Shown here piece by piece: positions 23,763 to 55,029 of a DNA stretch of 59,959 nt; positions within the stretch are counted from its first letter, which is position 1; each line of letters opens with the position of its first letter. A program made the position numbers and the translations under genes. Source of the stretch: Desulfuromonadales bacterium (GTDB lineage Bacteria > Desulfobacterota > Desulfuromonadia > Desulfuromonadales > BM103); contig JAQYVY010000020.1 in NCBI GenBank assembly GCA_030145195.1, positions 1 through 59,959 of the forward strand, given 5' to 3'. The notes under the pieces were generated by a model that saw only the letters and a list, made by a program, of their open reading frames with translations, was not told where the DNA came from and did no database searches.

Positions 23763-26009
<2,247 letters not shown>

Positions 26010-27930: not shown

Positions 27931-29151
27931 TTAACGGCGGAAAATCAGAGAGGTATTAATTCCTCCAAACGCAAAATTATTGCTCATCAAATATTCAATA
28001 TCGAGATTACGCCCCTCCCCGTTGAGATAATCAAGGTCACCACATGCGGGGTCAATATTCTTTAAATTCAAGGTCGGGGCAAACCACCCTTCGTGCATCA
28101 TTTTGATTCCAAGCCAAGACTCAATGGCACCACACGCGCCAAGGGTGTGTCCAAAATAGCTCTTTAAGGAGCTAATTGGCATTGCCGAGCCAAAGACGTT
28201 GCTCGTAGCGTTTGACTCAACAATATCTCCAAATCCTGTAGCTGTACCGTGAGCACTGACGTAACCGATCGCATCAGGTGCCAGATCAGCACAATCAAGT
28301 GACATTTCGATACATTTCTGGATGGTTCCCAGATTCGGTTGAGTAATGTGTGTCGCATCACAATTGGTGGCAAAACCAACGATTTCTGCGTAAATGTGAG
28401 CACCTCTGGCAACCGCATGCTCTCTTTCTTCAAGAACCAGGGTTGCCGCCCCCTCCCCAATCACGAGACCATCTCTGTCGACGTCAAACGGACTCGGAGT
28501 GGTCTTGGGCTCTTCATTTTTAAGACTGGTTGCAAACAGGGTGTCAAAGACTGCCACCTCGGTAGGGCAAAGTTCTTCCGCCCCGCCAGCAACCATGATG
28601 GTCTGGTAACCATTGCGGATCGCTTCAAAGGCATAGCCAATCGCCTGGCTTCCCGAGGTACAGGCGCTAGACGTTGGCACCAGTCTGCCTCGCAAACCGA
28701 AAAAAAGTGCGACATTCACGGCAGCGGTGTGACTCATCATCTGCATGTACGTATTCGCATTGATAGCGCGAGTAGAATTTTCTTTCAGCATGACACCGAA
28801 ACTTCGCAGCGTATCTGGACTGCCAGTAGATGAGCCATAGGCCACGCCCACCTCTCCTGAGGTAAGAATGTCAGCTCCAAGCAGTCCGGCCTTTTGTAAT
28901 GCCTCTTCGGTGGCGACAGTTGCCATCTTGGCAACGCGTCCCATACTGCGAGTTTGCCTTCTTGTGTAATGCGCAGGGACAGAAAAATCAGGCGCTGGGG
29001 CAGCGAGAAGAGAGTTCAGACCTTCATAAATGGTCCATTCGTCAACTTTCACCACAGCATTTTCCAGTTGCTTCAATCGGGAAAGAATCGTAGTCCATTC
29101 CTGACCAAAAGCAGTCACTCCACCCATCCCGGTCACAACGACGCGCTTCAT
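27931..29151 (-). CDS. apeR: Beta-ketoacyl-ACP synthase of aryl-polyene cluster (ApeR-like)
   Basis: FabF-type condensing enzyme of 406 aa. The Cys-His-His triad is visible: SSACTSGSQAIGYAF, SAHGTATGFGD and YFGHTLGACGAIES. It starts MKRVVVTGMGGVTAFGQEW. It is the last gene of the cluster, and its ATG overlaps the TAA of the reductase gene by 1 bp. In characterised APE systems ApeO and ApeR type ketosynthases extend the polyene chain with ApeC as partner. The exact division of labour here is inferred from order and similarity. Confidence 0.88.
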   Translation of the reverse strand: MKRVVVTGMGGVTAFGQEWTTILSRLKQLENAVVKVDEWTIYEGLNSLLAAPAPDFSVPAHYTRRQTRSMGRVAKMATVATEEALQKAGLLGADILTSGEVGVAYGSSTGSPDTLRSFGVMLKENSTRAINANTYMQMMSHTAAVNVALFFGLRGRLVPTSSACTSGSQAIGYAFEAIRNGYQTIMVAGGAEELCPTEVAVFDTLFATSLKNEEPKTTPSPFDVDRDGLVIGEGAATLVLEEREHAVARGAHIYAEIVGFATNCDATHITQPNLGTIQKCIEMSLDCADLAPDAIGYVSAHGTATGFGDIVESNATSNVFGSAMPISSLKSYFGHTLGACGAIESWLGIKMMHEGWFAPTLNLKNIDPACGDLDYLNGEGRNLDIEYLMSNNFAFGGINTSLIFRR

Positions 29152-29876
29152 TAAATCATCCCTCCATTGATCGAGATAGCCTGTCTGGTGACATACGCTG
29201 CAGCATCTGAACAGAGGTAAGCGACCAGGCCAGCGACTTCTTCAGGCGTTCCCAAGCGTTGCGTTGGAATAATTTTCAGGGCTTCTTGACGAATTTCTTC
29301 AGTAACCATCCCGGTATCAATCAAACCTGGCGCAACACAGTTAACCGTTATCTTTCTTTTTGCAAGCTCTACGGCTAAAGCCTTTGAAGCCCCGATCAAA
29401 CCTGCCTTTGTCGCACTATAGTTGACCTGGCCACGATTGCCCATCAGCCCGGAGACAGAAGACATGACAACGATACGTCCGCCCTTTCGCATCTGCACCA
29501 TCGGCATCACACAAGGCTGGATAACATTATAAAAGCTGTCGAGGTTTGTATGAATGACCTCGTCCCACTCTTCTTCCGGCATGGCCGGGAAAGCGTTGTC
29601 GCGGGTAATTCCAGCACAGCTTACGATGCCGTAAAAAGCGCCATTCTCCTCAATGAAGCCTTCCAGGGCACTTCGGCACTGCGCACGATCTTTTACATCA
29701 AACTGCATCAGGCGACAGACGCCATTGCTTGCACTAATCTGCTGCAAAGTTTCTTCAGCACCAGGACGGTCACTATTGTAATGGGCAACCACATGGAATC
29801 CTTCTGTAGCCAGCTTGACTGCGACGGCCCGTCCAATGCCCTTACTGGCACCTGTAACAAGAACTTGTCGACTCAT
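29151..29876 (-). CDS. apeQ: 3-oxoacyl-ACP reductase (FabG/ApeQ-like)
   Basis: Short-chain dehydrogenase reducing the beta-keto group after each condensation. The 241-aa protein has the cofactor motif TGASKGIGRAVAVKL, the catalytic Ser in VMSSVSGLMGNRG, YSATK for Tyr/Lys, and the C-terminal DAAAYVTRQAISINGGMI of FabG. It overlaps both neighbours by 1 bp, showing strict translational coupling between dehydratase, reductase and ketosynthase. Confidence 0.92.
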   Translation of the reverse strand: MSRQVLVTGASKGIGRAVAVKLATEGFHVVAHYNSDRPGAEETLQQISASNGVCRLMQFDVKDRAQCRSALEGFIEENGAFYGIVSCAGITRDNAFPAMPEEEWDEVIHTNLDSFYNVIQPCVMPMVQMRKGGRIVVMSSVSGLMGNRGQVNYSATKAGLIGASKALAVELAKRKITVNCVAPGLIDTGMVTEEIRQEALKIIPTQRLGTPEEVAGLVAYLCSDAAAYVTRQAISINGGMI

Positions 29877-30334
29877 CAGAAATCTCTCTCCAAAATTTGC
29901 TGTAACTCTTCTTTGCCAGGCAGGTAGGTGTTCACCTGCGCGTTTGCGACGATTTTATCGTCGAGGTGGATTGCACACTGAAACACGCCCATATTTCCAT
30001 CCAGAAGAACTTTTTCTGCAGTAACAATTAATCTCGATCCGGCAGGAAAGACCCCCACCTGAGATTCATACTTCCTGCTCCCCAGTAACAAACCGATATT
30101 GACGTCATGACCTGCATTTTCTGCGTGTCGCGCGCCCCATACTCCAATCGTCTGCGCCATGAGCTCAATACCAACCCAACCCGGCAGATCGCCGTTATCA
30201 TCAACAAAAGGGAGTTCCCTGGCAACATAGGCCTCACAACAGGAACCATTTTCATCAACAGAGACTACTGACGACAGCAGCAGCATCGGTGGTTCATGAG
30301 GAAGGAGGTTTTCCAGGCGCAGTTGTTCAGTCAT
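29876..30334 (-). CDS. apeP: 3-hydroxyacyl-ACP dehydratase, ApeP-like hotdog protein
   Basis: Dehydrates the 3-hydroxyacyl-ACP to the conjugated ene during polyene growth. The 152-aa hotdog-fold protein has MTEQLRLENLLPHEPPMLLLSSV, then VGIELMAQTIGVWGARHA and LLLGSRKYESQVGVFPAG, like APE dehydratases. I place the start at ATG 30334-30332 with GGAAG 7 nt before it. It overlaps apeO by 8 bp. The alternative start 45 bp upstream adds a Cys-rich stretch unlike the family. In known systems ApeP works with ApeI as a dehydratase pair. Confidence 0.88.
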   Translation of the reverse strand: MTEQLRLENLLPHEPPMLLLSSVVSVDENGSCCEAYVARELPFVDDNGDLPGWVGIELMAQTIGVWGARHAENAGHDVNIGLLLGSRKYESQVGVFPAGSRLIVTAEKVLLDGNMGVFQCAIHLDDKIVANAQVNTYLPGKEELQQILERDF

Positions 30335-31505
30335 CAGTTCTTCCAAAGAGCAAAGACACATTATTGCCGCCAAAAGCAAAGGAGTTGGACATACAGACGG
30401 GTGAACTCAAAACATCTTCCCTGCCAGCAATTCTTATCTTGCCAAGGTCAGGATCGTTCACACTATCCCACAAATGAGGTGGTGTTTTCATCTCATTCGG
30501 TTGCGTTAAAACCAGCCAGCAGAGCGCGGCTTCAATCGCACCGGCAGCGCCAAGGGTATGCCCCGTTAATGGTTTCGTGGAACTGCATGGAACCGAAGAG
30601 CCAAGAACCTTTGCGATCGCCTTTGACTCCATGCTGTCATTCAATCGGGTCGCGGTGCCATGAAGGTTCACGTAGCCAATGCGACTCGCTGTTATTTTTG
30701 CTCTTTCTATCGCCATACGCATAGCCGCTACGGCCCCCGTCCCTTCGGGATCAGGCGCGGAGACATGATAGGCGTCCGACGATTCACCGACACCAAGCAG
30801 AGCGACCTGAGCACGTTCCCTGCTAAGCAGGAAGATTGCAGCGCCCTCACCGATGTTAATACCATCACGATTCAGGCTCAAAGGATTACACACGCCAGTG
30901 GCGATCGACTCCAGCCCGTCAAAGCCGTTGAGGGTCAGACGACACAAGGTATCCACTCCGCCAACGATAACAGCATCACAGAGCCCTGCGTCGATTAAAT
31001 GTGTCGCGCTGACAAAAGCTCTGGCACTCGATGAACATGCGGTAGAGAGCGTATAAGCCGGACCTTTCAATGCGAGGTAATTCGCTAGAAGCTCGGAGAG
31101 CGAGCCGATCTCCTGTTGCAGATAGTGATATTCCTCAGGCAGAACTTTCTCTGTTCGGTACAGATCAAGAGCGGCCTCTCCCGCAGAAATACCAGAGGTG
31201 CTTGTGCCCAGCACAATACCGACACGCTCGGAGCCATATCGCTTGATGGCAGCATCAACCGGCCCTCTGATCTGCTCCAAAACGGCAAAGAGCAGCCGAT
31301 TGTTGCGACAATCGTATGGCGCAAAAGTCGCAGGCAATTTTGGCAGTAGATCCGTCACCTCGCCAACAACCGTGCGGCGACCGCTGGTCAGCAATGCCTC
31401 GGTCTCTCGCATCCCCGGACTGACGCCTTGCAGGAGGTTGTCACAGACCGTCTCTGGGTTGCTGCCAAGAGCACAGCTGATACCGACAGCATTAAGGTAA
31501 ATCAT
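30327..31505 (-). CDS. apeO: Beta-ketoacyl-ACP synthase of aryl-polyene cluster (ApeO-like)
   Basis: Second complete ketosynthase, 392 aa, with STACSSSARAFVSAT, NLHGTATRLNDSME and TGHTLGAAGAIEA (Cys-His-His). It starts MIYLNAVGISCALGSNPETV. The overlap with apeM is 14 bp. APE clusters need more than one ketosynthase; ApeO in Xenorhabdus forms a heterodimer with ApeC, the partner lacking the active-site Cys. A similar pairing with the gene at 40970-41689 is expected here. Confidence 0.9.
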   Translation of the reverse strand: MIYLNAVGISCALGSNPETVCDNLLQGVSPGMRETEALLTSGRRTVVGEVTDLLPKLPATFAPYDCRNNRLLFAVLEQIRGPVDAAIKRYGSERVGIVLGTSTSGISAGEAALDLYRTEKVLPEEYHYLQQEIGSLSELLANYLALKGPAYTLSTACSSSARAFVSATHLIDAGLCDAVIVGGVDTLCRLTLNGFDGLESIATGVCNPLSLNRDGINIGEGAAIFLLSRERAQVALLGVGESSDAYHVSAPDPEGTGAVAAMRMAIERAKITASRIGYVNLHGTATRLNDSMESKAIAKVLGSSVPCSSTKPLTGHTLGAAGAIEAALCWLVLTQPNEMKTPPHLWDSVNDPDLGKIRIAGREDVLSSPVCMSNSFAFGGNNVSLLFGRTDD

Positions 31506-33867
31506 GGTGTCCTTCCCCCCTCTTCCTCACATCTTGAAGAGAACGATCGTAGGCTGAGGGTGCCAACACAAAGGCGACCAATATGCCAACGAGAACAACC
31601 AGGCCAAAGGTTTGGATTGCAGCCGTCTGGCTCAAAGACAACAGACCGAAAGAGAGCACCGTCGTGCAGGCCGAAAGAGAAACGGCCAGGAGTGTCGACA
31701 CAGGCGTTTCGCGGCATTCTGCCATAAACAGTGTGTAGTCAATACCGATGCCGAGCACCAGCACCAAGCCTAAGATCCCAAAAAGATTTAAGGGCAGACC
31801 CAAAAGGGATAAGACGGCCAGAGAAGCCGCTCCTGCAAACAAGGGTGCATCCAGAATACGTATGGCTCGGGACAACCCGTATCGCCAACAAAGCAACAGC
31901 AAGATGGCAGCGTAACTGGCCGCAAGTAAAACGGTGATTTTCACGCGATAGAACCCGAACAGCTCTGACAACTCATCAGCAGGCGACACATAATCAACGC
32001 CATCATATTTCGCGGCAAGGGATTCGATAGCAGCGGCATCGGCAACACCATCCAGGGGAATGATTGCTCCTTGGTGCTCGCCAACGCCGCCCAACCACAT
32101 CATTCGCCAACCTCTGCTTACCGAGCTACGCAACCAGCTGTCAACGGTCAGAGGGGTAAACTCTTTATCGCCGGAGTCACCAGGCTCTGGAGTCCCAAGC
32201 TTGAGCTGTTGATGCAATACCGGAAGCAAAGGGATCATAAGCTGATCACGAATCAGAACAAAATCATTTTCCTGCTGCTGTCGGGATGGGACCAAAACCG
32301 AAAGACTGCGAAAACTCTCCAGAGCGCCCTCGCTGACAGCATTGTTCAAAGCAGAAGAGACGTTTTCCAGTTTCTGCAGAACCTCTTCGTCATCACGGCC
32401 GCGCACAACCAGCATTTGTTGACTCATAGTCGATCCGACAATGGCAGCAATCTCTTGACCCTGCCGTCTCAACCCTTCCGGCGCGGCCTGAAGTTGACGG
32501 ATATCATCGTTTGTTTTCAGCTGAGGGATGGCAAAGAGCGCCAGCACCAGCAGCGACAATCGGAGAGCACGTGATACCGCTGGCGTCCGCACCAAACCCA
32601 GCCAGAAATTAAGCACTCCAGCCAGCGGCATAGGCCGCACTGAAGGCGACTTCAACAAGAGCGGATAGAGCAAAACAACGGTCAGGAAAGCAGCCAGCAG
32701 ACCGGCACTTGAGAAGACAGCTAACTGCTTCAACCCTGGGAAGGGAGTGAGCAAAAGGACCAGATAGGCCATAACGCTGGTTAAAAACCCCATGCAGATC
32801 GCAGGCAGGATACGACGCAAAGCAACCAACGGTTGCCAGCCTTCCTGATCCGACAACCATTCACAGAGGTAGTGAAAGGAATAGTCGATTGAAACACCGA
32901 TGAGGCTCGCACCGATCACGAGTGTAAAAATGTGAATATTCCCCAAAACCAGGATCGTCGTAACTGATGCGAAAAGCAAACCACAAGTGACCGACAGAGC
33001 CCCCAACAGAAAGGGCTGAAAACGTCTAAAGACAGCGCCAAGCAAAAGAATCACGCCCAGAACGGAGCCTACGCCAATCGTCGAGATTTCAGTTTGTGCC
33101 TGTTTTATCCCGTGGGCGGCATAGAAGAGCGTCCCATGCTGCAAAAACCTCAATCCGGGTTGGTCATTTTCGAGTCCCTTGAGCACGCGGGAGAGCTCTG
33201 TTATCAAAGTGTTTGAACCGACCAGAGTGTATGGGTTGATCGCAAGTTCTGCCGTCACCAGAACATAATGAATATCATTGACCGGCTCGGAAACCAGCCA
33301 ACCATCATCGTGCTGCAGCTTGCCTTGATATTGTTTCAGATTCATAAAAAAGTTGCGCGTCAGCAACATGGGATCGGTCCGCAATTCTTCAGCACCGACA
33401 GCAGCGAAGGGGCTATAGACCTGAGCCATGACCCGTTGCACCCAGCCTTGGCCCTCCCCTCGCCTCAACATTGATCTGACATCGTCAGTCAAAAGCTGTG
33501 ACGCGTAAGGAGAGTAGAGCTGCCACCACTGCTTTTCATCTTCGCCCGACATGCGTGACAGCACACGTTCAATCTTGGCATGCTGGTCAAGCGCTGTCGC
33601 CAATCGTGCTGCAGAGACTTTCGCGACGCTCAGATCTGCATGCCCGACCAGGAACACAAGCTGCCTGTCGACGTCTTGCCTGACGCGATGCAGAGCCTGT
33701 TCAACCTCGGCATCCTTCTCTATTGCCGGGAACAGAGTCATCAGGTCCGTTTCCAGCAGGTCTCCGGAGTGCCAGAAAGCCGCCATCAGAAAGATAGCGC
33801 CGACCGACAGGGCAACCCAGAGCAAGGCTAAGGCCTGATTAGTTCGCGAAATATTGTTTCTCATCAA
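31492..33867 (-). CDS. apeM: MMPL/RND-family exporter (ApeM-like)
   Basis: A 791-aa inner-membrane protein with the typical duplicated RND plan: one helix, a large periplasmic loop (about 45-240), five helices (sterol-sensing-like, IGASLIGVSIDYSFHYLCEWL), then a repeat of the pattern with VLGIGIDYTLFMAECRE near the C-terminus. The Asp of each GxDY motif is present for proton coupling. It is predicted to move the polyene lipid or its precursor across the inner membrane, with the LolA-like protein encoded next to it. The N-terminal start is MM at 33867/33864. Confidence 0.9.
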   Translation of the reverse strand: MMRNNISRTNQALALLWVALSVGAIFLMAAFWHSGDLLETDLMTLFPAIEKDAEVEQALHRVRQDVDRQLVFLVGHADLSVAKVSAARLATALDQHAKIERVLSRMSGEDEKQWWQLYSPYASQLLTDDVRSMLRRGEGQGWVQRVMAQVYSPFAAVGAEELRTDPMLLTRNFFMNLKQYQGKLQHDDGWLVSEPVNDIHYVLVTAELAINPYTLVGSNTLITELSRVLKGLENDQPGLRFLQHGTLFYAAHGIKQAQTEISTIGVGSVLGVILLLGAVFRRFQPFLLGALSVTCGLLFASVTTILVLGNIHIFTLVIGASLIGVSIDYSFHYLCEWLSDQEGWQPLVALRRILPAICMGFLTSVMAYLVLLLTPFPGLKQLAVFSSAGLLAAFLTVVLLYPLLLKSPSVRPMPLAGVLNFWLGLVRTPAVSRALRLSLLVLALFAIPQLKTNDDIRQLQAAPEGLRRQGQEIAAIVGSTMSQQMLVVRGRDDEEVLQKLENVSSALNNAVSEGALESFRSLSVLVPSRQQQENDFVLIRDQLMIPLLPVLHQQLKLGTPEPGDSGDKEFTPLTVDSWLRSSVSRGWRMMWLGGVGEHQGAIIPLDGVADAAAIESLAAKYDGVDYVSPADELSELFGFYRVKITVLLAASYAAILLLLCWRYGLSRAIRILDAPLFAGAASLAVLSLLGLPLNLFGILGLVLVLGIGIDYTLFMAECRETPVSTLLAVSLSACTTVLSFGLLSLSQTAAIQTFGLVVLVGILVAFVLAPSAYDRSLQDVRKRGEGHHDLP

Positions 33868-34450
33868 TACTCAATACAGTGGGAGACGTTGAGAGATCAT
33901 CAAAATGAATCACAGTTCGGTTGCCACTAGCCTCGACGATCTCAACATCCTCGACCAAGAGGCGGCCCTGCAACTTGACGCCGGAAAAGACCTTCTTGAT
34001 TTTTGCAATATTGGGGGTCAGGTTCATTTCCCAGCGATCATCATTCAGAGAAACAAAATCAATCTTGAACGTTTTTTCCAGAGCCGCCTTGTCTCCGTCA
34101 AAGATTGACGAAAAGAAGCCGACAAACCGGAAGAGCTCGCCGTGATCAGCCTTGCTTTTGATCTTACGGGGCTGGTCACCAAAAGTTTCGGCAATCATTT
34201 CATCGGTCAGAACAAATTGCACCTGAAAGGGTTCCACCTGCGACCACACAACCCCTTTGTTTCTGACCAGCAGCAATGTGCCGGAGGAGTCCAAGGGAGC
34301 ATCTAGCCCCGAGATAAAACGTGTCTGTCGATACTGCGCTCGCAGCACATCAACACCAGACAGATTACTTTCCAACTCGGGGAAAGTGACGGCGGAGCAA
34401 GGCACCACCAACGAGGCCCCAAGGCAGAGACAGAGGAACAGTGTCCTCAT
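33839..34450 (-). CDS. apeL: LolA-like outer-membrane lipoprotein carrier (ApeL-like)
   Basis: A 203-aa protein with a signal peptide (MRTLFLCLCLGASLVVPCSA) followed by a LolA/LolB-type half-barrel: LSGVDVLRAQYRQTRFISGLDAPLDSSGTLLLVRNKGVVWSQVEPF. It is probably a periplasmic shuttle for the polyene lipid. It overlaps apeM by 29 bp and apeK by 4 bp. Distinct from housekeeping LolA by its cluster context. Confidence 0.87.
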   Translation of the reverse strand: MRTLFLCLCLGASLVVPCSAVTFPELESNLSGVDVLRAQYRQTRFISGLDAPLDSSGTLLLVRNKGVVWSQVEPFQVQFVLTDEMIAETFGDQPRKIKSKADHGELFRFVGFFSSIFDGDKAALEKTFKIDFVSLNDDRWEMNLTPNIAKIKKVFSGVKLQGRLLVEDVEIVEASGNRTVIHFDDLSTSPTVLSIDEKQYFAN

Positions 34451-34860
34451 GAAGAGACCCCGAGTTTATCCAGAAGAACCTGAGGAGAAGCAAAGCACAT
34501 CTCATTACTCTGCATATCGACCGCGACCTGGGTGGTTTGACCCTTGGTTGTCCGTTCTCCAGATTCTGCATCGAACAGCTCATAAGCAATTTTGAGCCGA
34601 CATTCGTACTCGACCAGTTTTGCCCGTACCAACACAACCTGCTGGAGCAACAAAGGTTTAACGTATTTCACCTGCGCCTCAACAACAGGCCAAGCGTAAC
34701 CAGAGGCCTTCATCTCGAAGTAGCTGAAATCAATTTTATCCATAAGCTCAGCGCGAGCCTCTTCAAAATAGCGCAAATAGTTTCCATGCCAGACAATTCC
34801 CATCACGTCGACATCCTGAAAGGGAATTTTGATTGTGATCTCTGCTGTTAAATCAACCAT
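34447..34860 (-). CDS. apeK: 4-hydroxybenzoyl-CoA thioesterase family protein (ApeK-like)
   Basis: Hotdog thioesterase of 137 aa with the signature DVDVMGIVWHGNYLRYFEEARAELM near the N-terminus (catalytic Asp in the DVDVMGIVWHGNY block). It could release mis-primed acyl chains or the finished chain from the carrier protein. It overlaps the ammonia-lyase gene by 8 bp and apeL by 4 bp. Confidence 0.88.
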   Translation of the reverse strand: MVDLTAEITIKIPFQDVDVMGIVWHGNYLRYFEEARAELMDKIDFSYFEMKASGYAWPVVEAQVKYVKPLLLQQVVLVRAKLVEYECRLKIAYELFDAESGERTTKGQTTQVAVDMQSNEMCFASPQVLLDKLGVSS

Positions 34861-36406
34861 GATACAAATCCCATCTTTTTTGTTGAATCAGGGAAACAAA
34901 ACGACGCAGGTCCGCTTCCAGAGGACGATCTTCGTCCAGGAAAGGAAACTCCGCCTGACACTCTTGCCACATGCTTTCAAGTCTCTCAGCGACCTGAGGC
35001 ATTTCTTCATCCTCACTTCTGTTCCTGAGCTCCAAAGCCTGGCCTGCTGCGATCAGACTGGCGGCAGCAACCTGCTCAGTCAGGGTCAGAATCCGCAGGC
35101 AATCTCTTGCGGCAATCGTACCCATGCTCACCTTGTCCTGATTGTGACATTCGGTAGACCGAGAAAAAACACTCGCAGGCATGGTCAACTTGAGGGCTTC
35201 CGCCGTCCAGGAAGAGACGGCAATCTGCACCGCCTTGAAGCCATGATTAATCATAGAACGATCCGGCTGTGAACCGCTCAGGTTTGCGGGCAAGCCATGG
35301 TTGAATTTTGGATCAACCAACTGCGCGAGCTGTCGATCCAGCAAATCCGCGATATTTGCAACAGCGACCTTCATGGAATCCATCACCATCGCAATATGGC
35401 CGCCATAAAAATGGCCGCCGTGCATCACCGTTTCATTCTCACCGTCGATCAGTGGGTTATCGGTAGCACTATTGACCTCATTCTCAATCATCTGCCGCCA
35501 CCAGGACATGCTGTCAGCCATAACCCCGATAACGTGGGGGGCGCAGCGCAGAGAATACCTGTCCTGAAGTCTGTGGCTGTTTCGAGGCAGCTTTTCGTTG
35601 TCGAGGTCTAACCTTATCCAGGCAGCGATTTGTTGTTGGCCTGGATGTGACTTCGCAGCAAAGAGCTGTTCGTTGAAATGAAAAGTGTTGCCTTTGATAG
35701 CGGCAACAACAATGGCGGTAATGCGCGCAGCAAGCCTCATCAGATACTCTGCGCGATCATAAGCCAGGCACGCCAGCCCGGTCATCGCAGCGGTGCCATT
35801 CATCAGCGCCAAACCTTCTTTAGGGCGCAAGGGGATCGGCTCCAGGCCGAGTTTTTGATACGCCTCGGCTGTCGGCATCAGCTGATCCTCGTAGAAGACC
35901 TCACGCTCGCCCGCAATCACCGCGGCGACGTAAGACATTGGGGTCAAATCGCCACTCGCGCCGACAGATCCTTCCTGCGGAATCCTCGGCGCAACATCGT
36001 GATTAAGGAGATCGATCAATCGTTCAAGGATGACGGGCCTGACACCGGACAAGCCGCGGGACAAAAAGGATAAGCTGGTCGCCATGATTGCCCGCGACTG
36101 TACGCGACTGAAATTGTCTCCCATGCCGCAGCCGTGGAAACGGACCAGATGTGCAGGGAGTTCCGGAACAAGTGACATCGGGATGTCAACCGTACACGAA
36201 TCCCCATAGCCTGTTGTCACGCCATAAATCAGACCGTCCTCTTTTAACAGTGCGTCCAAAAAATCGACACTTTTCTGTAGCTTGTTCCGATAATCTGGAG
36301 CCTCTGAAAGCACAGCATCAGAGGCTCCTTGAGCGATAGAAACTATTTTCTCTATTGAGATGTGATCACGACCAAACACTACGGTCTCACGGTTTGTTTT
36401 TTTCAT
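34853..36406 (-). CDS. Aromatic amino acid ammonia-lyase (HAL/TAL family) in aryl-polyene cluster
   Basis: MIO-dependent lyase of 517 aa. Ala-Ser-Gly at 150-152 (GSVGASGDLTPMSY) forms the MIO group, and Tyr61 (YGVTTGYG) is the expected catalytic base. The specificity loop reads HLVRFHGCG, placing F90-H91 where tyrosine lyases have His-Leu and histidine lyases Ser-His. In a pigment cluster, tyrosine to 4-coumarate (starter for the AMP-ligase encoded nearby) is the likely reaction, but histidine or phenylalanine cannot be excluded from sequence. The start is ATG 36406 (MKKTNRET) with AAGGGA before it, overlapping apeJ by 20 bp. Confidence 0.88.
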   Translation of the reverse strand: MKKTNRETVVFGRDHISIEKIVSIAQGASDAVLSEAPDYRNKLQKSVDFLDALLKEDGLIYGVTTGYGDSCTVDIPMSLVPELPAHLVRFHGCGMGDNFSRVQSRAIMATSLSFLSRGLSGVRPVILERLIDLLNHDVAPRIPQEGSVGASGDLTPMSYVAAVIAGEREVFYEDQLMPTAEAYQKLGLEPIPLRPKEGLALMNGTAAMTGLACLAYDRAEYLMRLAARITAIVVAAIKGNTFHFNEQLFAAKSHPGQQQIAAWIRLDLDNEKLPRNSHRLQDRYSLRCAPHVIGVMADSMSWWRQMIENEVNSATDNPLIDGENETVMHGGHFYGGHIAMVMDSMKVAVANIADLLDRQLAQLVDPKFNHGLPANLSGSQPDRSMINHGFKAVQIAVSSWTAEALKLTMPASVFSRSTECHNQDKVSMGTIAARDCLRILTLTEQVAAASLIAAGQALELRNRSEDEEMPQVAERLESMWQECQAEFPFLDEDRPLEADLRRFVSLIQQKRWDLYHG

Positions 36407-37346
36407 TCTGTCCCTTCCAAAAATCAAAGAAATTGAACCAGTCCAGGGGAGCATTCATACAATGAGAGGCCAGGCGATCGGCAAAGTTCTGAACGATTGG
36501 ACAAAGAGCTTCCACTCTGTTCGCCCGGGGCAAAACCAACGGTTCTGACAAGAACTCAAAATAAATTTTCAGCCCGGATTTTTCGTTAAGACCGAACATC
36601 AGGTAAACCGGGCACTTCATAAGTGAGGCCAGCACAAAAGGCCCTTGGGGGAAAGCTGCCTTGTGACCAAGGAAATCCGCTTCAACAACACTCTTTTTCG
36701 TATGCAAAGGAGTTCTGTCGGCAACAATGACAACCCACTCTCCTTGATCAATCTTCTGTTTCAACATGATCGCCGTATCAGGGCCGATCTCAGAGACCTG
36801 AATAAGGTTCACATTGGCACGCGGGTTAACTGACTTCAACAGCTGATTGAATTGTTGCGCGTGCTGGGTAAAGACGATGGCGTTAATTTGGACATCACCG
36901 GCCTCATCGCCTAGCGCCCGGCATAGCTCAAGGTTGCCCAGATGTGAACCGATGACCACAATCCCTTGACCGGAGGCAACGACCTCACGATAAAGGTCAG
37001 CTGAAGGAAAATCGACGTCATTCAGCGTGATATCGCCATTCCAGGCCGCAATTTTATCAAGGATTGAGTGACCGAAACAGAGGAAATGTCTGAAGCTGTT
37101 CAGACCTGCGGGCAATGTCTCCCCTATCGTCAAAGCATAGCTCCGAAGCCGTTGCAGATAGTCATTGGAGGCCCTGCGTGCCTGGTGTCCTGTCAACCAG
37201 AAGTAAGCCATAACCGGGTAAAGCAGCAGGCTGAACAGCCCACGACCAGCAACACGGTAAGCCCATAGCATAAACGTTAACCCGAATATGCCACCCCGCT
37301 CCTTTACGATCGACCAATGACGTTGACCAGAAATTTGGCTTTTCAT
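36387..37346 (-). CDS. apeJ: LpxL/HtrB-like lipid acyltransferase (ApeJ acyltransferase half)
   Basis: About 319 aa from ATG 37346 (MKSQISGQRHWSIVKERGG). Frames from 37394 (ATG) or 37430 (TTG, overlapping apeI) are also open, so the start is uncertain; none has a clear ribosome site. It has one N-terminal membrane segment, then VVIGSHLGNLELCRAL (the H-x4-D/E-like catalytic block), VIVADRTPLH and FPQGPFVLASLMKCPVYLMFG of the lauroyl/myristoyl acyltransferase family. In Enterobacteria ApeJ is a fusion of a family-2 glycosyltransferase with this domain. Here only the acyltransferase is present. Confidence 0.82.
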   Translation of the reverse strand: MKSQISGQRHWSIVKERGGIFGLTFMLWAYRVAGRGLFSLLLYPVMAYFWLTGHQARRASNDYLQRLRSYALTIGETLPAGLNSFRHFLCFGHSILDKIAAWNGDITLNDVDFPSADLYREVVASGQGIVVIGSHLGNLELCRALGDEAGDVQINAIVFTQHAQQFNQLLKSVNPRANVNLIQVSEIGPDTAIMLKQKIDQGEWVVIVADRTPLHTKKSVVEADFLGHKAAFPQGPFVLASLMKCPVYLMFGLNEKSGLKIYFEFLSEPLVLPRANRVEALCPIVQNFADRLASHCMNAPLDWFNFFDFWKGQNEKNKP

Positions 37347-37422
37347 AGATCCAGAAAGCGGCTTAGTCTCCCGCTTTACCTTGGTTGTGCACATGAGGAA
37401 TAAAAACCGGAACAGCAGACCA

Positions 37423-37770
37423 TCAACCAAGCATTATGCGACCGCTGCTAAGATCTTTTCCAGCGAGAGAGTAACGAAAGGTCAAGAGCGACTTTTCGGC
37501 AGCCCACTCCAGAAAAACATTCAACTCATCCTCTGGTCTGGCGGGCAAATGGAACTTGACCTGTTTCATACCGATAAATTTTTTATTGAGACCTAAATGA
37601 CGCTGCCCCCACAACATCGCCCAGTGTATCTGTACAACCCCGGGGAGAATGGGCTCCTGCGGGAAATGCCCTTTAAAATAGAGCAGATCATCAGGCAGAA
37701 CTGTAAAAAACTCAGCCCGGCTATCTGTAATCTTCAGCCCGGTGATCTCGGGCAACCAAGCAAACGACAT
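37423..37770 (-). CDS. apeI: FabZ-like 3-hydroxyacyl-ACP dehydratase (ApeI-like)
   Basis: Hotdog dehydratase of 115 aa with YFKGHFPQEPILPGVVQIHWAMLWG, the FabZ/FabA active-site block (catalytic His in GHFP). The ATG (37770-37768) overlaps the TGA of apeH as TGATG, a strong coupling signal; a GTG 3 bp earlier is less likely. Works as one of two dehydratases in APE synthesis. Confidence 0.9.
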   Translation of the reverse strand: MSFAWLPEITGLKITDSRAEFFTVLPDDLLYFKGHFPQEPILPGVVQIHWAMLWGQRHLGLNKKFIGMKQVKFHLPARPEDELNVFLEWAAEKSLLTFRYSLAGKDLSSGRIMLG

Positions 37771-39113
37771 CACACGAACAACTCCTCGAGACTACTCACT
37801 TCATACTTCCCTTGACTATTTACTGGCATTTCATCGACAAACCGGAACCGGCGAGGCACGCCTACGGGCTCAATATATTCAACCAGAGTTTGCCTGAGCC
37901 TTTGTATAAAATTTTGTTTACCGCGTTGCTTTAAATGAATCAAACCTTCATCCGTTAACAGAATGACAGCTCCGAGCTCTAAACGTGCCGACGAAGGCAA
38001 CGGCACAACAACAGCTTCCCGGACCTCCACAAGCCGCTGCAGACAGTGTTCAATCTCCAGCAGAGAAATCCTCTTTTCGGAGATTTTAACGACGCGATCT
38101 GCGCGACCTTTCAGGTGGAATCTTCCGTCAGGCAGAAGCGAAACGCGATCATCCGTTGCGTACCAATCTTCTGAAGCCAGAAAGGATGATTTTATTGCCA
38201 ACCGATCTTCATTTAAACAACAGAGCTCTATTTCTGGAAAGGACTGCCACGGCTCATCCTCGGAGCGTTGTTCTCTCCAGCCTATCCCACCGGTTTCACT
38301 GCTTCCATAAATTTCAAGGGGCAACTCACCAAACAGCGCCCGGCACTCCTGCGCAGCTTGGCACGACAAAGGCCCTCCGGAAGAGAAGACTTTACGATAA
38401 CCATGATCAACCGTTTCTGCCGTTAATCTTTTCAGCAAAGCCGGACTACTGATCAGGACCCTCTTCTCCGAGGAGTGCCTTGAAACCTGATCAGGATATT
38501 CGAGCCTTTTTGCCGAGAACGGCACCCCCAGCGCCAAAGGCAATAACACGCGAAATAAAAGCCCATAGATATGTTGATGTGAAACGGTTGCCAAAACCTC
38601 TCTGCCAACAAAGAACTCTCTAAAGAGCGCAGAGAGGACAGCGATTTCGGCATCAAGCTCTTTAAAAGTTTTCTTAATTGCTGTCGCGTTCGAGGTCGAA
38701 CCAGAAGTAAACAAGGTAACGCTGGTTGCAAGCAAAGACCGCTCCGGGATTGGAACCAGCGTTGTTCCAGTCTCAGGTGTCAGCAAAGGACAATCAACAG
38801 CTAAGGGAAGATCACTCAAGATTGCATCGTAATGATCCAGCAGCAGAACGAGCGCCTTTTTACTGTTGATGTTGCCGGGGACCACAATGTCTTTGCCAGC
38901 AACAGCCAAAGCATAGAGTGAGACGGCAAACCAGTAGCTATCTTCGAAGCAAAGAGCCCAACGGATTTCGCGCATCACAGAGAGTCGTGAAACGAGAGAG
39001 CCGACATCACGCCGGAAGTCACGCCAGAGGATCACCTGCCCGGAACGGCTCAGAGCAACAGGATCGTCATCGGCACGCTTTCGTGAAAGCAGATCAGTAA
39101 AAGAGCCAATCAA
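37770..39113 (-). CDS. apeH: Acyl-CoA/AMP ligase activating the aryl starter (ApeH-like)
   Basis: Adenylate-forming enzyme of 447 aa. It has the phosphate loop TLFTSGSTSNATAIKKT (atypical but recognisable), IYGSSETGGIGWR, WYATDDRVSLLPDGRFHLKGRADRVVKISEKRISLLEIE and a C-terminal VNSQGKYE with the catalytic Lys. In APE systems this enzyme loads the aryl acid on the carrier protein. I place the start at TTG 39113-39111: AAAGG lies 8 nt before it and the TTGA overlaps the apeG stop. The longer frame to 39149 has no ribosome site. Confidence 0.88.
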   Translation of the reverse strand: MIGSFTDLLSRKRADDDPVALSRSGQVILWRDFRRDVGSLVSRLSVMREIRWALCFEDSYWFAVSLYALAVAGKDIVVPGNINSKKALVLLLDHYDAILSDLPLAVDCPLLTPETGTTLVPIPERSLLATSVTLFTSGSTSNATAIKKTFKELDAEIAVLSALFREFFVGREVLATVSHQHIYGLLFRVLLPLALGVPFSAKRLEYPDQVSRHSSEKRVLISSPALLKRLTAETVDHGYRKVFSSGGPLSCQAAQECRALFGELPLEIYGSSETGGIGWREQRSEDEPWQSFPEIELCCLNEDRLAIKSSFLASEDWYATDDRVSLLPDGRFHLKGRADRVVKISEKRISLLEIEHCLQRLVEVREAVVVPLPSSARLELGAVILLTDEGLIHLKQRGKQNFIQRLRQTLVEYIEPVGVPRRFRFVDEMPVNSQGKYEVSSLEELFV

Positions 39114-39685
39114 GATGAAAGCCTTTTGCGATAATAATGCCGGAAGCAATATTCACCAGCGGCAAGAGCGGCAATAAGCAGATAGCTTATAAATCCGTTA
39201 TAAAGAGTCCAAAGCTTCAAATCGCCAACAAACACGGTATAGAGTGCGACAGAGCCATTAAAGACGAAGAAAAAGCACCAGATCAGGGTCACATTTTTTG
39301 TGTATTTGACTCCCGATTCTGGCAAGTCAGGCTCCCTCAAACGAGCAAATCTCTCAACCATCGAAGGTGGCGAGAGAAGTGTGTAACTGAACAGGAGCAG
39401 AAAAATCAGGTTAACGACAACAGGATAATAACAAAACCATTGTGCCTCTTGCATCAGCCAGGAAACAAGCGCCAAGGAGAAACCAATAACGGCCAGAGAA
39501 CGGATCACAATCACATATTTTGAGAGCGCACTCGAACCGGACGGAACAAAAAGTCGAAGCAGGAACAGACAAGCAACAACGAATGCCGTACTCCCAATAC
39601 CGAAGGAGCTTAGCCCCCAGTACACCGCCAGTGGGTAAGCAAGAATGGCCGCTCCGGCAATAATCGAGGCGAACCTAGACATCAT
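39110..39685 (-). CDS. apeG: COG4648-type membrane protein (ApeG-like)
   Basis: A 191-aa integral membrane protein with about five or six hydrophobic segments (AAILAYPLAVYWGLSSFG, AFVVACLFLLRLFV, WFCYYPVVVNLIFLLLFSY, WCFFFVFNGSVALYT). It has the family signature FARLREPDLPESGVKYTKNVTLIWC. It is found in APE clusters between the carrier proteins and the AMP ligase; its biochemical role is not established. Overlaps apeF by 11 bp and apeH by 4 bp. Confidence 0.85.
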   Translation of the reverse strand: MMSRFASIIAGAAILAYPLAVYWGLSSFGIGSTAFVVACLFLLRLFVPSGSSALSKYVIVIRSLAVIGFSLALVSWLMQEAQWFCYYPVVVNLIFLLLFSYTLLSPPSMVERFARLREPDLPESGVKYTKNVTLIWCFFFVFNGSVALYTVFVGDLKLWTLYNGFISYLLIAALAAGEYCFRHYYRKRLSS

Positions 39686-39938
39686 CCTCTACGAGCAGGC
39701 CTTTGACCGTTTTGACGATGTCGCTGACGGTTCTAACCGTCTTGAATTCGTCCGGCTTAACCTTCATGCCCGTTTCATTTTTCAACCTAACAACCAGGTC
39801 GATTGCATCAATGCTATCGAGACCAAGATCCTGTGACAAATGCGCATCAAGGGTTACCACCTCTTCTTCAAGTTCAAACAGATCCACCATCGCGTTACGG
39901 ACCTTCTGAAAAACATCATCATCGGTATAAGCGGCCAT
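39675..39938 (-). CDS. apeF: Acyl carrier protein (ApeF-like)
   Basis: 87-aa carrier protein with the phosphopantetheine site LGLDSIDAIDLV (Ser in DSI). I chose ATG 39938 with AGGA 6 nt upstream; a TTG 6 bp earlier overlaps the apeE stop. In characterised APE systems ApeE and ApeF carry the growing chain, with different partners. Confidence 0.92.
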   Translation of the reverse strand: MAAYTDDDVFQKVRNAMVDLFELEEEVVTLDAHLSQDLGLDSIDAIDLVVRLKNETGMKVKPDEFKTVRTVSDIVKTVKGLLVEDDV

Positions 39939-39940
39939 CG

Positions 39941-40204
39941 TCAATCCTGTATTTTCTGTGATTTGATAAAGCTGGCGAGAGTAGAGACGGAACGAAAGGC
40001 TTCACGGGTATGAACGTCATCCGAGTTGAGATTAATATCGAACTTCTTCCTCAGCGCAATGCCAAACTCAAGAGCATCGATAGAGTCCAAACCGAGTCCA
40101 TCACCAAAGAGCGGTGCTTCCGATTCAATATCTTCAGGTTGAATATCTTCGAGACATAAAGATTCAACAACCAGCTGTTTAATTTCGTTTTCCAGATCCA
40201 TCAT
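39941..40204 (-). CDS. apeE: Acyl carrier protein (ApeE-like)
   Basis: 87-aa carrier protein, acidic, with GLGLDSIDALEFG for phosphopantetheine attachment. Start ATG 40204 after GAGAG; a second ATG follows directly. The two carrier proteins share the D-S-I-D core but differ elsewhere, so they are not a recent duplication. Confidence 0.92.
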   Translation of the reverse strand: MMDLENEIKQLVVESLCLEDIQPEDIESEAPLFGDGLGLDSIDALEFGIALRKKFDINLNSDDVHTREAFRSVSTLASFIKSQKIQD

Positions 40205-40217
40205 AGAGATTCTCTCT

Positions 40218-40994
40218 TTAACAAGTCTCAAGAGTTAACGCTTTGGACAAATACTCTGTCAACTTTCTCGCAGCGACAGAATCAGCAGTCGACTCATCAG
40301 CAAAGTTGCGTATATTAACTTTTTCCATCACCTGAACCAAGAAAAATGGCTTTACAACAGGTAATTGATGCCACTTTTTGCCCTTATTGAGGAAAGATGG
40401 AGCGCAATGGATATGGATGACCCTCAAGTCGCAGCGAGAACGAACTGCAATCTGGGCCGCGCCGCGCTTAAGCTGCAACTTTTCTCCGGGGATCGTTCTT
40501 GTCCCCTCGGGGAAAACCAGCAATACGCGTCCCTTTTTCAGCAAGGTGTCACACTTTGACAACATCTCAGCGGTGTCAGAATTATCAACATATCCGGCAG
40601 CGGTAATTGCCCCCCGGACGAAAGGGTTGTGCCACAAGGCCTCTTTAACAATGCAATCGCACTGTGGCAACAATGAGGTTATCAAAACATAATCAATCAA
40701 AGTCGGATGATTGGCGACGAGCACGCAGCCCCGATCCTGTTCTAAAAGCTCACGACCTTCAATTTTGACATCAATCACTCTCAGCCATTTTATCTCTGCG
40801 ATAAAAAACCGGAAAGCCTGCCGGATCGTACTTTGAGCAACAGCTTTACGTCTTTCAACATCAGAGACGAAAAGATGTACCAGTGGGAAAAACACCAAGG
40901 TCAGAAAAAGCCCGCCAACGCCAAAGGTAAAAAAGCCGAATGCGGTGGCAAAGAGACGCCACAGTTGATTTATTTTACGCAAGTCCACATCCAA
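40218..40994 (-). CDS. apeD: PlsC-like lysophospholipid acyltransferase (ApeD-like)
   Basis: 258-aa membrane-associated acyltransferase. The first 40 residues are hydrophobic, then come NHPTLID (N-H-x4-D catalytic motif, about 94-100) and VFPEGTRTIPGEKLQLKRGAAQIA. It probably attaches the polyene to a lipid. The frame opens at TTG 40994, overlapping apeC by 25 bp; starts a few codons later are possible since no clear ribosome site is present. Confidence 0.87.
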   Translation of the reverse strand: MDVDLRKINQLWRLFATAFGFFTFGVGGLFLTLVFFPLVHLFVSDVERRKAVAQSTIRQAFRFFIAEIKWLRVIDVKIEGRELLEQDRGCVLVANHPTLIDYVLITSLLPQCDCIVKEALWHNPFVRGAITAAGYVDNSDTAEMLSKCDTLLKKGRVLLVFPEGTRTIPGEKLQLKRGAAQIAVRSRCDLRVIHIHCAPSFLNKGKKWHQLPVVKPFFLVQVMEKVNIRNFADESTADSVAARKLTEYLSKALTLETC

Positions 40995-41689
40995 TCATGA
41001 CGAGTCCCCGAAACAGTAAATTGACTCTCTTCATTGAGGTAGTGTTGCAAAAACTGAAGCGCCTGAGGCATCAAGGCTTTATCACTCCACTCAACCGCGT
41101 CCGCAGACGCAACTTTCCAGTCCTCGCCATTTTTCAGGATCAACCCCAGAGCACACGGGAACAGCTCTTCATCAACAAAGGATGAATAGACCTCGGGAAG
41201 AACATCATCGAAATAGACAAGCAGTATCGTGTTGTCAGACGAACCATTCAAACGCGCACACGCTTCTATCATCCCCTGCTGAAAGCTATCCTTGCCAGCG
41301 GCAAGCGAAGTGATGGGAAACTTTTCCTGCGCTGCAATTGAAAACAAACCTGAGGCAGTATTGTGTACAGACTGAGAGAAGGCAATAGGTGAGGCCTCAT
41401 CTCCAGACAAAATCTCAGTTATCAGTTTGCAGGTTCGTTGTAATTCACCGTGGCGGCTAACAAAGATTGCTGAATCGACTTTATGCTTTTTTGACAGTGA
41501 AAGAGCGGTCTGCACGGCCAGCTTGCTCGCCAAACTCATTCGCCGGCGCGAATTAGCCGGGATAAGGTCATAGGCAAGCTCTTCAACACTTTGTTTGTGA
41601 CCAGAATGGGCCCAGGCACACCAATCTTTCTCACAGCAAAGGGCTGGCGCGAGAGCAAACCAGTCAAATATTTTCACTTCAATCTGCAT
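40970..41689 (-). CDS. apeC: Ketosynthase-like chain-length-factor protein (ApeC-like)
   Basis: A 239-aa protein related to the N-terminal half of beta-ketoacyl synthases, lacking an active-site Cys. The block SQSVHNTASGLFSIAAQEKFP, with LAAGKDSFQQGM following, is typical of the short APE family paired with ApeO. It begins the operon. The ATG 41689 (MQIEVKIFDW) is preceded by GAAAG. In Xenorhabdus the ApeC partner is needed for ApeO activity; the same is assumed here. Confidence 0.85.
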   Translation of the reverse strand: MQIEVKIFDWFALAPALCCEKDWCAWAHSGHKQSVEELAYDLIPANSRRRMSLASKLAVQTALSLSKKHKVDSAIFVSRHGELQRTCKLITEILSGDEASPIAFSQSVHNTASGLFSIAAQEKFPITSLAAGKDSFQQGMIEACARLNGSSDNTILLVYFDDVLPEVYSSFVDEELFPCALGLILKNGEDWKVASADAVEWSDKALMPQALQFLQHYLNEESQFTVSGTRHDWMWTCVK

Positions 41690-41942
41690 CAAGATCTTTC
41701 AGAGAAATCGCGCGGACACTAAGCGTTTCAGAGCCTGCTGGTCGTTTAATAAAACCGGGAAAGGAAGGTCCATATAGTACCACAGGGAGTTTATATACCG
41801 GGGGATTAAATGGTTGCCTGCTTAAGCATCGGGCCGAAGCGCGCTCCCGTAATACGAGTGACTCTGTCTGCTAAGCGAAGCCAAGCCACGAGTCACTGCG
41901 GTTCGAACCGAAGAAACTGGGTTCTAGAGAATGTAAGCAAGG
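41690..41942. other. Non-coding region upstream of the polyene operon
   Basis: 250 bp between apeC and the lipoprotein gene, both on the minus strand. It must hold the operon promoter, but no strong -35/-10 pair was found. There is an AGTGACTC/GAGTCACT inverted repeat (about 41854-41899) with a 30-nt loop, and no regulatory gene adjacent. The GGTTCGAACCG at about 41900 resembles a tRNA T-loop but no tRNA can be folded around it. Confidence 0.4.
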
Positions 41943-42680
41943 TTAATTGAGAAGGACTTTATTGTCTATCTTCGCACTCATACATTCAGCGGTGTAACCA
42001 TCGCTATCGAAACAGACATCAACAAGTTTACTTCCGCCCCGCTGTCGTTTCGTTGGATAATAGACCCAGACACTACTTCTTTTATAGTCTGGCGTAAATC
42101 TCTCCATAGGATAGCCAACAGAGTTGATAACTTGTTGTTTTGTCATTCCTTCAACAACAGCACCTTGATTGATCGCCGTCAAAATTTCAGCATCATACTG
42201 GCTTAGCGTTTCATTCATATCTTGTGCTGTTAGAAGCTTGTTGAGATAACTAAACATTGTGAGCCCGGGATGGCGTCGACGAGAAAAAGCCAGTTCATAT
42301 TCGAGCCCCTCTCTGGTTACAAAACTAATGTTGTCGCTATAACTCGGGCTGAAACCATCACTCATTCGCTTCTTTTCTTCTACGACAGTCCCTTGATCTG
42401 TATTGTAATGAAGAATCGTTTTTAGTTCCTTTGACTCCAATTTAACTGAAGTTATTTCTGTGCCAATGGGCAGCATTGGGCCCCTTCGACTGCTGCCAGC
42501 GTAAATCACGCGATGCTTCCCCCACAAATTACAGGCAGTGTAAAGTTTAGGTGCTTCAAATAGTGTAACTTTTGTTCTTTCTATATCTGCTTTCGTAGGT
42601 AGGCTACTGCACGAAGCAAGGAATAAAAAACCAATAATGGCCAGGGTTTTAAAATATATGCGAATACTGTTTAAATTCAT
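41943..42680 (-). CDS. Lipoprotein with C-terminal BamE/SmpA-like domain
   Basis: A 245-aa protein with a lipoprotein signal (hydrophobic segment then LASC, Cys about 24), so probably outer-membrane anchored. The middle part is unrecognised. The last 70 residues (NQGAVVEGMTKQQVINSVGYPMERFTPDYKRSSVWVYYP...KLVDVCFDSDGYTAEC) match the BamE/SmpA pattern G-M-T-K-x-Q-V-x3-G-x-P. I chose ATG 42680 (GGGGAG 11 nt before) over GTG 12 bp upstream. A 6-bp-arm palindrome (CTGCTA-AA-TAGCAG, 42716-42729) sits just upstream. Its function is unknown, and a link to polyene transport is only positional. Confidence 0.75.
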   Translation of the reverse strand: MNLNSIRIYFKTLAIIGFLFLASCSSLPTKADIERTKVTLFEAPKLYTACNLWGKHRVIYAGSSRRGPMLPIGTEITSVKLESKELKTILHYNTDQGTVVEEKKRMSDGFSPSYSDNISFVTREGLEYELAFSRRRHPGLTMFSYLNKLLTAQDMNETLSQYDAEILTAINQGAVVEGMTKQQVINSVGYPMERFTPDYKRSSVWVYYPTKRQRGGSKLVDVCFDSDGYTAECMSAKIDNKVLLN

Positions 42681-43073
42681 TTTACGTCTCACTCCCCAAA
42701 TGCTATAGAGTCAATCTGCTAAATAGCAGTCTATTTACATCAATTATTAAAACACACAAAACAAACTGACTTCAGGTTTTACCTTATGCCTATAGCCATG
42801 TCAAACCTAAAGGCCGAGAGCCAGATATTGATTTGAGAGCTACCAGTCAATCATGTAAAGTGCTAAGGATTTAAGCTATTTAGTCTCAAAACAGCACAAT
42901 AGAAAAGAGCGGAAAAAAGATCTTCCAGAACGGCATCCGCGACATGCGATAATTCACAATATGTGGTGTTTTGAGAGCACCATCAATACTGTGGATCTAG
43001 TGACAGGGCTATTACAATACAATCCATTTGAATCTCCTAATAAAGCAAATGGGTGAAATAAAGGTCTTCACAT
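42681..43073. other. Divergent intergenic region
   Basis: 390 bp, AT-rich, between the lipoprotein gene (minus) and the serine hydrolase (plus). Apart from the palindrome at 42716-42729 nothing recognisable: no RNA, repeat family or short gene with a ribosome site. Confidence 0.5.
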
Positions 43074-44282: not shown

Positions 44283-44283
44283 A

Positions 44284-45989: not shown

Positions 45990-46066
45990 TTTTTCTGGTC
46001 ATAACAAACAAATTGATGTAAGCTTCGGTTAAGTCAGCCTTGCCAAGACATAGACTGGAGTTTCAA

Positions 46067-55002: not shown

Positions 55003-55029
55003 ATCGACCTCTGTTGGGGTATCTACGTT

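Follow-up and report, generated by a model that had tools for sequence, protein, structure and literature searches.

The window analysed here, the whole 59,959-nucleotide stretch of contig JAQYVY010000020.1 from a Desulfuromonadales bacterium (assembly GCA_030145195.1), carries an aryl-polyene (APE) gene cluster with an aromatic amino acid ammonia-lyase gene in its interior, and our main concern is the role of this lyase as the probable source of the aryl starter. The initial annotation had described sixteen overlapping genes in the order C-D-E-F-G-H-I-J-lyase-K-L-M-O-P-Q-R, and this is indeed what is found at 27931-41692 on the minus strand, where the open reading frames (ORFs) are co-directional. 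Genes were assigned by Pfam matches and pairwise comparison, and by pairwise comparison only for ApeG and ApeM, which have no Pfam match. The percentages below are identities to the proteins of the Escherichia coli CFT073 ape cluster (L121) or, where so named, of L002, one of two sister clusters in the Geobacteraceae metagenome-assembled genome (MAG) Ww292; GT2 stands for family 2 glycosyltransferase and MIO for 4-methylideneimidazole-5-one.

40970-41692, minus strand: apeC, chain length factor (PF13723, E 1.5e-66; 35% to E. coli ApeC)
40218-40994, minus strand: apeD, lysophospholipid-type acyltransferase (PF01553; 46% to E. coli ApeD)
39941-40231, minus strand: apeE, acyl carrier protein (PF00550; 52% to E. 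coli ApeE)
39675-39944, minus strand: apeF, acyl carrier protein (PF00550; 49% to E. coli ApeF)
39110-39685, minus strand: apeG, membrane protein (no Pfam match; 49% over 130 residues to E. coli ApeG)
37770-39149, minus strand: apeH, AMP-dependent acyl-ACP synthetase, presumed to activate the starter (PF00501/PF13193; 35% to E. coli ApeH)
37423-37773, minus strand: apeI, hotdog dehydratase (PF22818; 38% to E. coli ApeI)
36387-37430, minus strand: apeJ, acyltransferase half only, GT2 half absent (PF03279; 43% over 315 residues of the 558-residue E. coli ApeJ; 66% to residues 239-556 of the fused L002 ApeJ)
34853-36454, minus strand: aromatic amino acid ammonia-lyase of the MIO family, probable start Met17 (PF00221, E 2e-162)
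34447-34860, minus strand: apeK, thioesterase (PF13279; 54% to E. coli ApeK)
33839-34450, minus strand: apeL, LolA-like periplasmic carrier (PF19574; 32% to E. coli ApeL)
31492-33867, minus strand: apeM, RND/MMPL-type exporter (no Pfam match; 34% over 780 residues to E. coli ApeM; NCBIfam HAE3/HpnN below cut-off)
30327-31505, minus strand: apeO, ketosynthase (PF00109/PF02801; 52% to E. coli ApeO; NF006618 over cut-off)
29876-30379, minus strand: apeP, hotdog dehydratase, probable start at codon 16 (PF22817 ApeP-like, E 4e-28; 37% to E. coli ApeP)
29151-29876, minus strand: apeQ, ketoreductase (PF13561; 66% to E. coli ApeQ)
27931-29151, minus strand: apeR, ketosynthase (PF00109/PF02801; 66% to E. 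coli ApeR; NF006587 over cut-off)

If the longest ORFs are taken, neighbouring genes overlap at every one of the 15 junctions, with overlaps of 1 to 68 bases. With the probable start at Met17 the lyase gene overlaps apeJ by about 20 instead of 68 bases, with the start at codon 16 the overlap of apeP is 8 instead of 53 bases, and an apeE begun from the ATG at codon 10 would leave a gap of 13 bases behind apeD. Under either lyase start, the earlier statement that the lyase gene sits inside the operon and overlaps both neighbours holds true. What is more, the best match of every non-lyase protein, 15 in all, is its E. coli namesake (32-66% identity, order kept). A megablast search of 36387-41692 against E. 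coli genomes gave no match. The features that mark an ape cluster are present, namely the ketosynthase-chain length factor pair ApeO/ApeC, the ketosynthase ApeR, the ketoreductase ApeQ, the dehydratases ApeI and ApeP, the carrier proteins ApeE and ApeF, ApeH and ApeK, and so are the attachment and export genes for ApeD, ApeG (called COG4648 for E. coli in the available text of PMC8253772), ApeJ as its acyltransferase half only, ApeL and ApeM. The genome holds two phosphopantetheinyl-transferase-family genes. Promoter- and terminator-like sites near both cluster ends are few and close to the means of shuffled sequence, except at the 3' end with four promoter-like sites against 1.3, from which we conclude nothing.

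No PF00221 gene other than that of the ape lyase was found in the genome. Its MIO triad Ala-Ser-Gly is intact, and the catalytic Tyr, Asn, Tyr and Arg are retained in the alignment. The nearest solved chains are 2o78 (E 9.6e-76), deposited as a putative histidine ammonia-lyase (HAL) and which we take to be a mutant of the R. sphaeroides tyrosine ammonia-lyase (RsTAL), and a tyrosine aminomutase (E 3e-75). No curated name fits the protein, since it falls below the cut-offs of all eight NCBIfam models that it matches, including those for hutH, phenylalanine ammonia-lyase (PAL), FlxA, BagA/FevW and aminomutases. At the column that we assume to correspond to HAL Glu414, its residue is Gln, which also occurs in 65 of the 66 aligned lyases from related loci (the remaining one has a gap) and in 26 of the 42 rows taken from genomes of its class, Desulfuromonadia; the other 16 class rows have Glu and all belong to the HAL-type branch. 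The 42 rows contain some genes twice and amount to 35 distinct 70-residue cores. Phe-His (FH) forms the selectivity pair of the window lyase and of 66/66 of the aligned related-locus lyases, a count that is partly biased because one of the six patterns used for finding the loci contained the FH motif; the lyase of the plasmid sequence L130, found by tblastn, has YH, and the short fragment L068 was left out of the alignment. All 42 class rows have Ser-His. The pair HL is typical of tyrosine ammonia-lyases and FL of PAL, and RsTAL has His at the position of the Phe in the window (RsTAL-89). With Phe-His as the pair, either tyrosine or phenylalanine may be the substrate.

Turning to the starter itself, the initial annotation had proposed that it derives from an aromatic amino acid and not from chorismate by way of 4-hydroxybenzoate (4-HBA). 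This is the best-supported reading, since the lyase, which lies in the cluster and is probably not specific for histidine, is encoded by the sole PF00221 gene found, and searches of the genome, an assembly of 100 contigs with an estimated completeness of 99.95%, matched neither the chorismate lyase UbiC nor urocanase. UbiC occurs in just one of 277 genomes of the class, and urocanase was detected in 5 of 14 control genomes. As no UbiC was found, the lyase is probably the sole source of the aryl starter. Taken together, we hold with a probability of roughly 85% that the window contains a lyase-type APE cluster in Desulfuromonadia, in which the lyase would make the starter from tyrosine or phenylalanine, with substrate, product and localisation predicted from the sequence.

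In the pathway that we propose, the lyase would deaminate L-tyrosine to 4-coumarate (or L-phenylalanine to cinnamate), and ApeH would load this acid onto the carrier proteins ApeE/F. The ketosynthase pair ApeO-ApeC, together with ApeR, would then condense the starter with malonyl units, ApeQ would carry out the reductions and ApeI/P the dehydrations, and ApeK would release the polyene acid. Finally, ApeD and ApeJ would attach the polyene to a lipid, and ApeL/M would carry the product to the outer membrane.

That said, several observations speak against this reading. HutH-type models are the top-scoring NCBIfam matches of the lyase, albeit below cut-off (406.5 against 539.15 bits and 416 against 524). 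Phe at the said RsTAL site, as in the 2o78 mutant, favours phenylalanine, and the FH pair could mean cinnamate. The chorismatase family PF21168 has no match in the genome and none in any control either, which makes this search uninformative, and another source of 4-HBA is possible. Furthermore, among 24 lyase-bearing genomes hand-picked from the 67 related loci, 16, all of them gammaproteobacterial, also have UbiC, so that the lyase cannot be explained simply as a stand-in for UbiC. As to the eight where UbiC was not found (five labelled Spirochaetota or Brevinematales, one Fibrobacter, one deltaproteobacterial MAG and one Geobacteraceae), as here, the lyase is the evident candidate for the source of the starter. 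Nor does ApeH discriminate between starters: its best NCBIfam model is TIGR02372, 4-coumarate ligase, below cut-off, but E. coli ApeH, a 4-HBA enzyme according to the available text of PMC8253772, gives the same best model, and we have therefore dropped this match as evidence for a coumarate starter. Finally, the missing GT2 half and ApeN could mean a decaying cluster or a truncated product.

The alternative that survives best is that the lyase deaminates phenylalanine, giving cinnamate as the starter and a bare phenyl ring as the head group. The Phe at the RsTAL-89 position argues for it, since this change favours phenylalanine in RsTAL. However, the nearest solved chains are a presumed RsTAL and a tyrosine aminomutase, and the His that follows the Phe also occurs in the tyrosine aminomutases SgcC4 and CmdF, a weak point, as the HAL-type rows have it too. 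What is more, FlxA of the flexirubin pathway, a precedent for a lyase in a polyene cluster, has a first motif like that of HAL and a second like those of tyrosine and phenylalanine ammonia-lyases, and was shown to be a tyrosine ammonia-lyase that yields no product from histidine (PMC3992019, available text). On balance, we consider phenylalanine as the specific substrate somewhat unlikely.

To return to the aromatic-amino-acid reading and the rest of the product, the cluster had initially been called complete, which is an overstatement. Namely, besides apeN and apeB, it lacks apeA, a flavin oxidoreductase gene and the GT2 half of ApeJ. The reported absence of ApeN stands: there is no room for its gene, because apeM and apeO overlap by 14 bases, and no DUF3261 protein in the whole genome reaches the cut-off (best E 0.155). 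A methyltransferase is likewise absent from the cluster, as had been noted; tblastn found neither apeA nor apeB in the window, and the best match to the sister's ApeB genome-wide is 24% identical. This match sits in a region (L137; G000 contig C14, 80000-99900) that resembles, by eye, another natural-product cluster, with a large polyketide-synthase-like gene, an acyl-ligase, methyltransferase-like genes and a PF01648 phosphopantetheinyl transferase. With no ApeB orthologue found, an unmethylated head group is plausible.

How unusual these absences are can be judged from the related loci, which were fetched with flanks of at most 10 kb and to which the counts of missing genes apply in that DNA only; the flavin gene, apeN and apeB were sought anywhere in each locus, with no fixed place required. 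Among the 53 clusters that hold J, lyase, K, M, O and R, an ApeB homologue is absent from 46, window included, an apeN homologue is present in 48, and a flavin oxidoreductase homologue is present in 45, the exceptions being the window, L002, L065, L047, L048, L050, L053 and L062. L064 and L067 lack apeN by similarity, although L067 has a lipoprotein-like ORF in its place. The gap between apeM and apeO was read in eight loci, of which six have the flavin gene between apeM and apeN (or the ORF that stands in for apeN there) and two (L050, L053) lack it; that of Pseudoalteromonas matches Trp_halogenase and FAD_binding_3. ApeN is thus usual but not universal, and since both sister clusters are also without it, we do not take its absence to exclude membership of the ape type.

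The truncation of ApeJ is of a different kind. The protein has 347 residues, whereas an APE-type GT2 lies within 200 bases of apeJ in 55 of 57 clusters (the window and 56 loci, with the E. coli cluster excluded). The exceptions are the window and L026, in which apeJ is cut by the contig edge, and this leaves the window as the sole cluster with an uncut apeJ and no adjacent GT2. Nearby lies the gene for the protein that, of all in the genome, best matches the GT2 half of ApeJ from the sister cluster (37% identity):

44206-45012, plus strand: GT2 glycosyltransferase (PF00535)

It directly follows a beta-lactamase-family gene, the two together occupying 43074-45012 on the plus strand, divergent from the ape operon. 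Its identity to the APE GT2s compared is 32-37%, while those are 41-77% alike among themselves; on account of this low identity we no longer take it for the relocated half of ApeJ and keep it only as a possible substitute. The product would probably be unmethylated and may lack the usual sugar.

Would our conclusions be different if the cluster were a partly decayed remnant that makes no product? The absence of apeN, apeA, apeB and the GT2 half fits such a view, as does the near-singular lack of an adjacent GT2 together with the missing flavin gene. On the other hand, all 16 frames are open and tightly overlapping, the proteins are 53-81% identical to those of the sister clusters, and both sister clusters also lack apeN and the flavin gene, which makes these two losses shared ones. 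We therefore regard a remnant as quite unlikely. Another proposal, a flexirubin-type cluster with the polyene esterified to a dialkylresorcinol, has in its favour that flexirubins, too, are aryl polyenes started by a lyase (PMC3992019, as far as its available text goes), but it is very improbable, even though no search of the genome was made for darA/darB, the resorcinol genes, given that the lyase scores 336 of the 700 bits set as the cut-off of the FlxA equivalog model NF053541 and that the genes are arranged as in the ape clusters of E. coli and Pseudoalteromonas. The least probable of all, despite the HutH-type top scores, is that the enzyme is a histidine ammonia-lyase with no part in the pathway, its gene just lying within the operon of a pigment with another starter: no urocanase was matched, Gln stands where 16 HAL-type rows have Glu, the HAL-type proteins L100 and L114 from the class, two of those 16, pass both HutH models while the APE lyases L065 and L007 fall under them like that of the window, and the lyase occupies the same spot within ape operons in 51/67 loci, so that we reject histidine catabolism and consider the protein as probably not a histidine catabolic enzyme.

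The arrangement with the lyase between J and K is itself not rare, and the novelty that the initial annotation seemed to imply is refuted by its occurrence in those 51 of 67 related loci of other species, mostly Gammaproteobacteria, and by published APE clusters with an ammonia-lyase. The 16 remaining loci comprise L040 and L063, with J-lyase only, and 14 with another arrangement or too little DNA. Public records name the gene "aromatic amino acid ammonia-lyase" beside an acyltransferase and a thioesterase. An ammonia lyase is listed among characteristic APE genes with reference to Aliivibrio fischeri APE_Vf (PMC8719888), ammonia lyase genes resembling the A. fischeri cluster are mentioned elsewhere (PMC5851621), and a "histidine ammonia-lyase" group is given among flavobacterial APE genes (PMC5932025), in each case in the part of the source that is available. 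Among the literature matches listed for Geobacter-type organisms, none contained APE terms, which is weak evidence of absence. The available passages of PMC11573776, PMC12826048 and PMC9966250 add nothing decisive.

Within the class, 32 of 277 genomes have a PF22817 match (E 0.001 or better), but only three matches are strong (97-108 bits), one in the genome of the window and two in Ww292 (G005), which belongs to the same family; the rest reach at most 29.7 bits. The two Ww292 clusters, L002 and L065, are the nearest relatives: their lyases are 80-81% identical to that of the window, as against about 50-62% for most other related loci, and the three join in the lyase tree with support 100. A further branch with support 100 sets apart 68 rows, namely the window, the 66 related-locus lyases and L130, with 52 Pseudomonadota, 10 Spirochaetota, two Thermodesulfobacteriota, one Myxococcota and one Fibrobacterota, the window and L130 being ungrouped. 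Beyond the Geobacteraceae copies, the nearest neighbours are gammaproteobacterial, with weak support (80), in a tree built by a quick method with a midpoint root and several long branches flagged. Horizontal transfer of the lyase is possible from this placement.

Some relatives depart from the common layout. L047, L048, L052, L057, L062 and L063 are permuted: clusters of the Methylomonas type carry the N-R block ahead of C-M, and in some Spirochaetota-labelled loci the lyase lies at one end and not between J and K, whereas L063 reads J-lyase-O. Desulfuromonadia also hold a second, different type of polyene-like cluster (L124-L128, in G125, G033, G089, G100 and G226). Its full set is seen in L125: ketoreductase, ketosynthases, FAD oxidoreductase, acyl carrier protein, acyltransferase, AMP-ligase, Ser-His lyase, hotdog protein, LolA, MMPL exporter, thioesterase, ketosynthase and a chain-length-factor-like protein, the lyase having Gln at the HAL-Glu column and scoring just under the HutH cut-offs. 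Of the 32 genomes that have a PF22817 match, 19 have this match within 500 bases of a PF00221 match.

As for the surroundings of the cluster, a lipoprotein-like protein, whose BamE-like match stays just short of the Pfam cut-off, is encoded at 41943-42692 on the minus strand, about 250 bases upstream of apeC, and no homologue of it was found in the fetched DNA of L002 and L065. Just downstream of apeR, at 23763-25958 and 26125-27648 on the minus strand, are a Fic-domain gene and a large ORF that by eye resembles catalase-peroxidase. Beyond the opposite end of the cluster there is another Fic-domain gene (46040-47284, plus strand). Further away, a phage-type integrase adjoins a transfer-messenger RNA (tmRNA) gene at 53749-55576, where a second, doubtful tmRNA call overlaps; an element has probably integrated here, at ssrA.

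As a class of bacterial pigments, aryl polyenes are very widespread, and a full enzymatic core with an internal lyase in a genome where no UbiC was found offers a clean test case for a supply of the pathway by the lyase and for the amino acid on which the enzyme acts. Since the FH signature is common to the 66 aligned lyases, one assay would inform the annotation of the family. More tentatively, and with more doubt than belief, one could propose that in bacteria lacking UbiC (Desulfuromonadia and the relatives in Spirochaetota and Fibrobacterota) an FH-type lyase enables a proteobacterial-style APE pathway, and that the present lineage has done away with ApeN and the flavin-dependent step, and this genome, as the only one among those examined, with the glycosyltransferase as well, which would yield an unmethylated, possibly non-glycosylated APE lipid from 4-coumarate or cinnamate.

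How does the cluster compare with known systems? It is an APE cluster of the lyase-containing, A. fischeri-like kind, a known and widespread arrangement in a new host, and it is likened to the gammaproteobacterial clusters of the APE_Vf (MIBiG BGC0000837) type from their published descriptions, as far as available (PMC8719888, PMC5851621). All 16 gammaproteobacterial hosts tested have UbiC, whereas none was found here. On the Pseudoalteromonas shioyasakiensis plasmid NZ_CP077771 the order is the same, with a 62% identical lyase between the ApeJ acyltransferase and ApeK, but that cluster also includes genes for a flavin oxidoreductase and a separate GT2 as well as apeN, none of which is present in the cluster studied here. 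The two Ww292 clusters, lyase-type clusters within one MAG and each running from C to R minus N, share the gene order and the absence of apeN and the flavin gene; unlike the window, they keep a fused GT2-acyltransferase ApeJ (556 and 559 residues, the GT2 halves 77% identical) and a divergent apeB-apeA pair by apeC. In E. coli CFT073 all 15 non-lyase genes are colinear with those of the window, but apeA, apeB, apeN and a fused ApeJ are present and a lyase is not, and in the published model the starter is 4-HBA, made by UbiC of the ubiquinone pathway (PMC8253772, available text). In the flexirubin cluster of Chitinophaga pinensis, an MIO lyase (FlxA) and a ligase likewise start an aryl polyene (PMC3992019, available text), although the first motif of FlxA is HAL-like whereas the lyase of the window has the FH pair and falls below the FlxA model cut-off. 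Consequently, the system itself is not new, and the new points are modest ones, namely the host, a member of Desulfuromonadia in which no UbiC was found, and its trimmed gene set.

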